The notes beneath the pieces are model-generated. The model searched no databases and was not told where the DNA came from. It saw only the letters and a list, made by a program, of their open reading frames with translations. A stretch of DNA of 5,597 nucleotides from Deltaproteobacteria bacterium. GTDB taxonomy: Bacteria > Desulfobacterota > Desulfobacteria > Desulfobacterales > JAFDDL01. The DNA lies in NCBI GenBank assembly GCA_019310865.1, contig JAFDDL010000272.1, positions 1-5,597 on the forward strand, read 5' to 3'. A program made the position numbers and the translations under genes. Within the stretch, counting starts at the first letter, position 1; each line of letters opens with the position of its first letter. Of the stretch, positions 1,308-2,574 are shown piece after piece.

Positions 1308-1562
1308 ATGAGAGCAAGAATCGTAAAAATAGGGAACTCCCAGGGCATTAGAATACCAAAACCCTTACTGGATCAGAGCGGAATAACTGAAAATGTAGAA
1401 TTGGAGGTGGAAAAGCACAAGATAACAATACGTCCAGTTTTAAGTGTAAGATCCGGCTGGACCAATGCATTTAAATCGATGGCCCAAAATGGCGATGATG
1501 TGCTCGATGAAGGTTCGGATGTGATCACACACTCTTGGGATGAGAATGAATGGACATGGTAG
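1308..1562 (+). CDS. mazE: MazE-family antitoxin (AbrB/SpoVT fold)
   Basis: This is an 84-residue protein of normal length for the family. Residues about 1-45 form the swapped-hairpin AbrB/MazE DNA-binding domain, with the typical V-x-KIGNSQGIRIPK opening and an L-x-VEKHKITIRP strand. The C-terminal part (about 46-84) is acidic and rich in Trp (GDDVLDEGSD, then WDENEWTW), as expected for the tail that wraps around and blocks MazF. The last 13 bases overlap the start of the toxin gene, so the two are translationally coupled with the antitoxin first. A strong promoter and a dyad operator lie directly upstream. In known systems this protein neutralises MazF and represses the operon. The stretch is visibly more AT-rich than fecR upstream, which fits, but does not prove, acquisition by transfer. 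Confidence 0.9.
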   Translation: MRARIVKIGNSQGIRIPKPLLDQSGITENVELEVEKHKITIRPVLSVRSGWTNAFKSMAQNGDDVLDEGSDVITHSWDENEWTW

Positions 1563-1879
1563 TTAGCCGGTTCGATGTATGTCTTATCAATCTTGATCCT
1601 ACCGTCGGATCCGAAATTAGAAAAACCAGGCCATGTCTGATCATATCCCCGGACGAAATGAACCATAACATACGCACGATAATTGTTGCCCCGATGACTA
1701 CGGCGTCAAAACAATACCCGACACGAGTCCGCTGCAGCTTTAAAACAAAAAAGGGGCAAATTATCCTTGATCAAATACGAACCATCGACAAAACCCGAAT
1801 CATTAAAAAGCTCGGGACGATAGCCCCTAAAACTCAGGCAGACGTTATTTCTGTTTTACAGCAGCTTTTTGCCTTCTAA
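1550..1879 (+). CDS. mazF: MazF/PemK-family endoribonuclease toxin
   Basis: This is a 109-residue protein, full length for the family. MazF toxins cleave single-stranded mRNA at short sequence motifs and stop growth. Family hallmarks in order: R-x-DVCLINLDPTVGSEIRKTRP (residues about 7-28, the conserved G-x-E-I-R/K-x-x-RP loop with E22, R24 and R27), IIVAPMTT (44-51), and LDQIRTIDKTRI (73-84, with the R77 region that carries active-site residues in Kid/MazF). No truncation or frameshift is visible, so the toxin looks intact. Two in-frame ATGs are possible, 1550 and 1556; both overlap the mazE end, and GGGATGAG just upstream suits the first. The cleavage motif cannot be read from sequence. The gene converges on hepT, with 48 bases between the two stops. 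Confidence 0.92.
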   Translation: MDMVVSRFDVCLINLDPTVGSEIRKTRPCLIISPDEMNHNIRTIIVAPMTTASKQYPTRVRCSFKTKKGQIILDQIRTIDKTRIIKKLGTIAPKTQADVISVLQQLFAF

Positions 1880-2371: not shown

Positions 2372-2408
2372 TTTCCCTTCTTTCTTGCCTATAATGCAGC
2401 TCGCGCAC

Positions 2409-2411
2409 TTA
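2409..2411. repeat. Left copy of putative TTA target-site duplication
   Basis: TTA here and TTA at 2572-2574 directly flank the fold-back element. Removing the element and one copy leaves mntA's stop followed by a 37-base spacer to the hepT ATG, a plausible original operon junction. Three bases is short enough to occur by chance. Confidence 0.45.
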
Positions 2412-2571
2412 GGATCGTGAACTAAATAACTTGAACCATATTGCTTGTCTATAGGCCCGTCTTCTGCGTTGCGCTAAAGCCCACATACATAAAGTATGCG
2501 GCCTTCAACGCGCCTTGAATACGAACCTATATCCTTCGCAATCTTAGTCCAATTTATTTAGTTCCCGATCC
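2412..2571. mobile_element. MITE-like fold-back element inserted between mntA and hepT
   Basis: The terminal inverted repeats are GGATCGTGAACTAAATAA (2412-2429) and TTATTTAGTTCCCGATCC (2554-2571), 17 of 18 bases matching. The similarity continues inward through most of both arms (for example TATAGG against its partner CCTATA, and GCGTTG... against CAACGC) to an apex with CATAC (2484-2488) and GTATG (2494-2498). The whole 160 bp can therefore fold into one imperfect hairpin. It is flanked by TTA on both sides (2409-2411 and 2572-2574), consistent with a 3-bp target duplication. It has no open frame large enough for a transposase, so if mobile it depends on one elsewhere. The parent transposase family is not identifiable from the window. 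Confidence 0.75.
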
Positions 2572-2574
2572 TTA
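2572..2574. repeat. Right copy of putative TTA target-site duplication, also the mntA stop codon
   Basis: Read on the - strand this TTA is the TAA stop of mntA. The insertion therefore appears to have hit the stop codon and restored it through the duplication. Confidence 0.45.

Follow-up and report, generated by a model that had tools for sequence, protein, structure and literature searches.

A MITE-like hairpin element between mntA and hepT: dispersed relatives and a strand-polar fold

The mntA-hepT locus and its hairpin element

We analysed a 5,597-nucleotide stretch of DNA (the window) in which the antitoxin gene mntA and the toxin gene hepT are separated by a fold-back element (Table 1). 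The window appears to be of Desulfobacterales type, its TRAP permease sharing 90% identity with one from a sequence named Desulfobacterales bacterium. Both products score above the cut-offs of their NCBIfam equivalog models and carry the motifs named for type VII in the available text of PMC7641770, so that the pair is classed from these assignments as a type VII toxin-antitoxin system, with neutralisation predicted. A MazE-like antitoxin gene (1308-1562, plus strand) and a PemK/MazF-like toxin gene (1550-1879, plus strand) adjoin hepT and point at it; together with mntA-hepT they make two toxin-antitoxin pairs lying tail to tail in the window. In viral contigs, 132 stretches were considered as relatives of mntA, and none was confirmed.

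Table 1. Features of the mntA-hepT locus, in window coordinates
Feature	Position	Strand	Basis or remark
mntA, adenylyltransferase antitoxin, 145 aa	2572..3009	-	NF047752, 74.8 bits (cut-off 60); GSX10DXD by eye
hepT, HEPN ribonuclease toxin, 147 aa	1928..2371	-	NF047751, 123.6 bits (cut-off 60); PF01934; RX4HXY by eye
Likely hepT Shine-Dalgarno (GAAGGG)	2375..2380	-	between element and start codon, from sequence
MITE-like hairpin element, 160 nt	2412..2571	-	better-folding strand is minus, the mntA-hepT mRNA sense
Left terminal inverted repeat, 18 nt	2412..2429	+	17/18 match with right end
Right terminal inverted repeat, 18 nt	2554..2571	-	pairs with left end
TTA target-site duplication, left copy	2409..2411		read from sequence
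TTA target-site duplication, right copy	2572..2574	-	mntA stop codon TAA on minus strand
Conserved core (TTGCG..AAGGCGC..CATA..TATG..GCAACGC..GACAAGCA)	2442..2541	-	common to copies with differing ends (alignments A2, A4)

The length of the element, its terminal inverted repeats, the flanking TTA and the position between the two genes were given in a preliminary description of the locus and are confirmed here. A blind repeat search recovered the inverted repeat independently, as 2411-2436/2547-2572 with 88% identity. The element is short and without coding capacity, with no ORF of 60 aa or more listed in it. The predicted fold of the plus strand of 2400-2585 has -60.5 kcal/mol; shuffled versions give -31.5 (sd 3.7), and none of 200 did as well. 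The minus strand of 2409-2574, which is the mRNA sense, reaches -86.2 kcal/mol with 64 predicted pairs, compared with -56.1 and 57 pairs on the plus strand, in agreement with the long paired arms described earlier. This strand asymmetry, like the coincidence of the right-hand TTA with the mntA stop codon, is an addition to the preliminary description.

As read from the sequence, the element appears to have entered at TTA/TAA with a 3-bp duplication on the TAA stop codon of mntA, leaving both genes intact. In an alignment with 18 homologues, MntA and all of these end at one column, which indicates that the insertion hit the stop codon and that the duplication preserved it; truncation of MntA by the element was rejected on the same grounds. 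The spacer between mntA and hepT is 200 nt with the element, and it would be 37 nt without the element and one duplication. Among ten plasmid mntA-hepT loci opened, both genes were annotated in nine, and they overlap by 4-11 nt in all nine; these loci are distant homologues, which show the usual layout and not the ancestor of the window locus.

A dispersed family with target-site duplications

BLAST with the window element found matches in 12 of 398 Pseudomonadota genomes (best E 2.0e-12), which were sampled around one Betaproteobacteria genome, the basis of the phylum assignment. Ten of the 12 hold relatives that are full length by covariance model, and the short matches in G058 and G319 were judged to be chance. 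Two covariance models were built, R1 from 11 copies including that of the window and R2 from 20 copies with the window left out; R2 gives the window element 136.8 bits over positions 1-160 on the minus strand and 40.9 bits on the plus strand. The preliminary description suggested searching the host genome for further copies; the dispersed relatives reported here lie in other genomes, those of Pseudomonadota. Among the R1 matches listed, down to about 115 bits and with 150 candidates scored per genome, the ten carriers have at least 59 (G141), 46 (G270), 16 (G204), 11 (G066), 7, 5, 2, 2, 1 and 1 distinct copies. The raw R1 totals are 149, 127, 60, 29, 14, 13, 6, 5, 3 and 3, in which one element may be counted on both strands. 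In 40 contigs (214 kb) of G270, 19 places score 80 bits or more, amounting to about 1.4% of the DNA at roughly 156 bp each.

With seven candidates scored per genome, R1 matched 52 of the 398 Pseudomonadota genomes, 22 of them at 80 bits or above. In 395 Bacteroidota genomes it matched three, one of which (G767) reached 93 bits. Among these genomes, 30 of Pseudomonadota and two of Bacteroidota fell below the acceptance threshold of 80 bits, and the counted carriers are the 22 genomes. Twelve weaker-matching elements score 56-72 bits with R2. The inner words AAGGCG and CAACGC, with one change allowed in each, occupy matching positions on the model strand in 11 of 13 weak elements (L258-L270) and on the other strand in none, compared with 2-19% of shuffles, in a test that is not independent because the model favours these words. 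Many weak matches may be distant relatives, with the core reaching other ends and Bacteroidota.

Several side observations concern these weak hairpins. L259, L260, L263, L265 and L268-L270 are hairpins of 155-161 bp with different ends that keep the inner AAGGCG and CAACGC, and are possibly distant relatives. Ends of the GGGCACCTCGAAAAACC type were seen in three Pseudomonadota genomes; one Bacteroidota genome has ends of the GTGCTGCGTCA type, flanked by CTA/TAG.

BLAST with the window element gave no match in plasmids or phages, and three other copies had none in plasmids. A scan of viral contigs for one terminal repeat gave 34 stretches, with the partner end in none, and core patterns gave 0 and 7 stretches there, none of the seven being matched by R1 at the place of the pattern or being a hairpin repeat by eye. 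In genome contigs, a strict scan for both terminal repeats gave three stretches with no relative by eye or by R1. A relaxed two-end scan gave 83 stretches, 80 of which were examined, and BLAST similarity to the element was present in none. A nested palindrome in a Betaproteobacteria MAG (L035:2448-2598) fits the two-end pattern; it consists of repeated words, ATCGTGAACT-like ones and CGCCAAGAC, and neither R1 nor R2 matches it.

The insertion sites were studied in 80 copies. These are all the matches among 180 rows that are unique, complete and on the sense strand and that score about 100 bits or more; rows that were weaker, cut, duplicated or antisense are excluded. Judged by a simple ORF rule, 77 of the 80 are outside genes, and three fall within ORFs of at least 80 aa. 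Flanks were readable in 77 copies, and in 57 of these they are identical TAA or TTA trinucleotides (40 at the model boundary and 17 one base further out), while the next trinucleotides outward are identical in three of 77; a clean TWA pair is missing in 20. In G204, one 106-nt internal-deletion form occurs three times; TWA duplications accompany two of these insertions, and the third is flanked by TAT/ATA. For two copies of G066, the model found no element beside 19 loci homologous to their flanks in relatives. Matches occurred in 49 other genomes, from which these loci were taken; contig ends truncate some of them, and gene order differs. The flanks of L232 are not together in relatives, so that for a strict empty site we saw only absence beside homologous genes. 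The dispersed copies, TWA duplications and 19 homologous loci support the earlier reading of a MITE-like insertion. The element is short and noncoding, with terminal inverted repeats and a target-site duplication, and its family is dispersed and multicopy, the latter being established in other genomes; these are features of a MITE.

The ends vary between genomes and within G270, while the core is shared: over 2442 between-genome pairs, mean identity is 68.4% in the core and 56.2% in the ends. The ends are mostly G(G/T/C)N..AAATAA-like, and the GG...CC ends presumably resemble those of Tourist. Some copies are unusual in architecture. In L254, L255 and L212:1338-1497 the core is enclosed by terminal repeats of quite another kind (AGTAGGTG..., AGTATCCCGACC...), as if exchanged between ends. 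L153 and L154 are long copies of 188 and 192 nt with a second small hairpin in the apical loop (GCCCTGAA.GGGCGCGATAG).

Strand-specific folding and its explanations

The same strand is preferred in all 14 copies of a BLAST-found set, the window included, which was not chosen by a model and omits the partial copies L143, L145, L146 and L155. Among the 80 model-selected copies, 79 fold better on the model strand, by a mean of 14.5 kcal/mol, although selection by a model of one strand favours such polarity. The family consensus folds at -56.2 on the favoured strand and at -26.5 on its complement. A sequence-only alignment of 78 copies (A4, which omits L153 and L154 of the 80 for their long loops) has 52 predicted pairs, 42 with compensatory changes, including pairs of the inner stem. 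Paired cells amount to 96.7%, and the covariation score is 0.520, compared with 0.168 in shuffles (0 of 500 attained 0.520) and at most 0.097 in slid alignments. The alignment contains 407 G.U against 113 A.C cells, 77 of the latter in one column; without two near-invariant columns (75 G.U and 77 A.C), the counts are 332 and 36. The copies are related, and the covariation and strand counts are not independent events.

The window element alone was also considered. When its mismatched columns were assigned to strands at random, the observed energy difference was reached in 2 of 3000 trials; with two other alignments and runs kept together, it was reached in 6 of 1500 each, and DNA energies gave a weaker result (28 of 1500). 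A neutral-decay simulation reached the difference once in 2000. The two strands would be equivalent in a cruciform, so the strand bias points to RNA or single-stranded DNA, and selection appears to act on the structure of the family in the form of one single strand. That strand is probably RNA rather than single-stranded DNA. Relative to co-directional genes, the elements are oriented at random (14 sense and 18 antisense, p 0.60), and effects on the mRNAs of neighbouring genes therefore do not account for the polarity.

Taken as a whole, a mobile hairpin under single-strand selection, together with the mobiliser and operon effect proposed below, is the best explanation, and one we hold with good confidence. 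The element would be a non-autonomous, MITE-like mobile hairpin, one copy of a family dispersed in Pseudomonadota and present in a Desulfobacterales-like host. The likeliest mobiliser would be a trans-acting DDE transposase that targets TWA, as in PIF/Harbinger, a step to which we give even chances; such target choice is known for some IS5-related elements. A cognate transposase bounded by family ends was not found among seven PF01609 matches in five draft genomes or two PF13359 matches in 12 draft genomes, and the TIR pattern had no pair at transposon distance in draft genome G204. At one transposase match, in L242 of G270, the family end belongs to a copy (1305-1400) cut short by an apparent other insertion sequence with GGCAGGATAC ends and TTTA flanks. 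A stronger version, in which the family is a long-lived mobile hairpin unit with a strand-specific core, fixed internal loops AAGGCGC/GCAACGC, different ends, a range of at least two phyla and a folded strand (RNA or single-stranded DNA) needed for spread, perhaps to protect or present the element or to recruit a protein, would be rather unlikely.

Bacterial MITEs are usually regarded as relics of insertion sequences. The family could likewise consist of ordinary decaying MITEs, in which the stem comes only from transposase-site ends and descent of each copy from a palindromic master and the asymmetry is an inherited accident with no function of the single strand. Its ends, TWA duplications and dispersal fit a MITE, and its orientation to genes is random; several near-invariant G.U columns could come from one master, and inside the window alone G.U and A.C pairs number 7 and 2, which is not significant. 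However, the compensatory changes extend to the inner stem, the excess of G.U over A.C persists after removal of the near-invariant columns, and the core is more conserved than the ends, the reverse of what decay would leave. We consider this explanation unlikely, though a serious competitor. Alternatively, the mntA-hepT operon could have an ancestral regulatory RNA here, an attenuator or processing hairpin that was never inserted. This would agree with the exact placement between the genes and the strong fold on the mRNA strand, but is already contradicted by the many copies at different loci of other genomes. The target duplication and the gene overlap in all nine comparable operons also speak against it, as does Rfam 15, which matches neither the window nor the loci of ten relatives and, in 2372-2600, has no hit even up to E 1; such an origin is barely credible.

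For the operon itself, transcription from mntA would yield a self-contained hairpin that has about 64 pairs, begins at the stop codon and ends 40 nt before the hepT start. As the likeliest effect, cleavage by a double-strand RNase or a 3' block would separate the mntA mRNA from the hepT mRNA and end any translational coupling. An intrinsic terminator was rejected, as no T-run follows the stem and a consensus scan lists none at the element. Around the hepT start and its Shine-Dalgarno, the element leaves the predicted pairing unaltered, so occlusion of the start was rejected at the level of prediction, and mRNA cleavage or decoupling by the hairpin, on the analogy of Correia elements, is the possible effect that is left. 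A modest lowering of toxin per antitoxin through cleavage or a 3' block can be proposed tentatively; that the element has no effect on the operon falls just short of an even chance.

Selected domestication would go further, a random insertion having been kept since its hairpin lowers HepT relative to MntA. The sense orientation does place the stable strand in the mRNA, and hepT has its own Shine-Dalgarno. Furthermore, RNase III cuts transcripts within Correia elements (PMC2649163, available part), and ERIC insertions at gene 3' ends alter mRNA decay (PMC10969869, in the portion consulted). Against this, the family shows no preference for the sense orientation (14 against 18), a single case cannot show selection, and the hepT start is not predicted to be occluded, which makes domestication improbable. 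Nothing in the orientation counts suggests that the elements are placed to regulate, and the tuning of toxin against antitoxin put forward in the preliminary description is not supported.

Comparison with known hairpin repeats

One core in Pseudomonadota and a Desulfobacterales-like host, compensation along the whole stem and the strand preference suggest that single-strand folding matters to the element itself, and the role of bacterial hairpin repeats as RNA becomes a testable question. R1 and R2 can be used to annotate copies of the family, and the mntA-hepT locus is a natural example in which a hairpin lies precisely at the junction of antitoxin and toxin genes. We recognised no earlier description of the family in the openly readable literature, a scope outside which ISfinder and most subscription journals lie, and one may exist.

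REP and REPIN sequences are palindromic and extragenic, like the family. To our knowledge, REP/IS200-type elements make no duplication. REPs are also much shorter, at 20-40 bp in the accessible text of PMC3733652. ERIC/IRU and other enterobacterial repeat units resemble the family in their length of about 100-200 bp, their dispersal and their long stem-loop transcripts, but have TA ends and a 7-bp TIR, as far as PMC2229807 was available, where the family has TWA and 18 bp. The Correia elements of Neisseria (CREE/NEMIS) occur as 153-157-bp and 104-108-bp forms, compared with mostly 156-162 bp and a 106-bp form in our family, and likewise have inverted-repeat ends and form a hairpin in mRNA (PMC2649163, the same available part). 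Their TA target and their ends are not those of the family, which uses TWA, a distinction drawn from the CREE description and not from an alignment. The MITE families in the accessible sections of PMC2229807, PMC10969869 and PMC4853749 differ from ours in target, ends or duplication length.

The bacterial IS5 duplication is ANT, unlike the TWA of the family, and the PIF/Harbinger (Tourist-like) duplication is TWA with 3 bp, as in our copies (PMC4482050, in the part at hand). By anatomy, the family is a MITE family, and it is unusual among them for its conserved, strand-polar structure.
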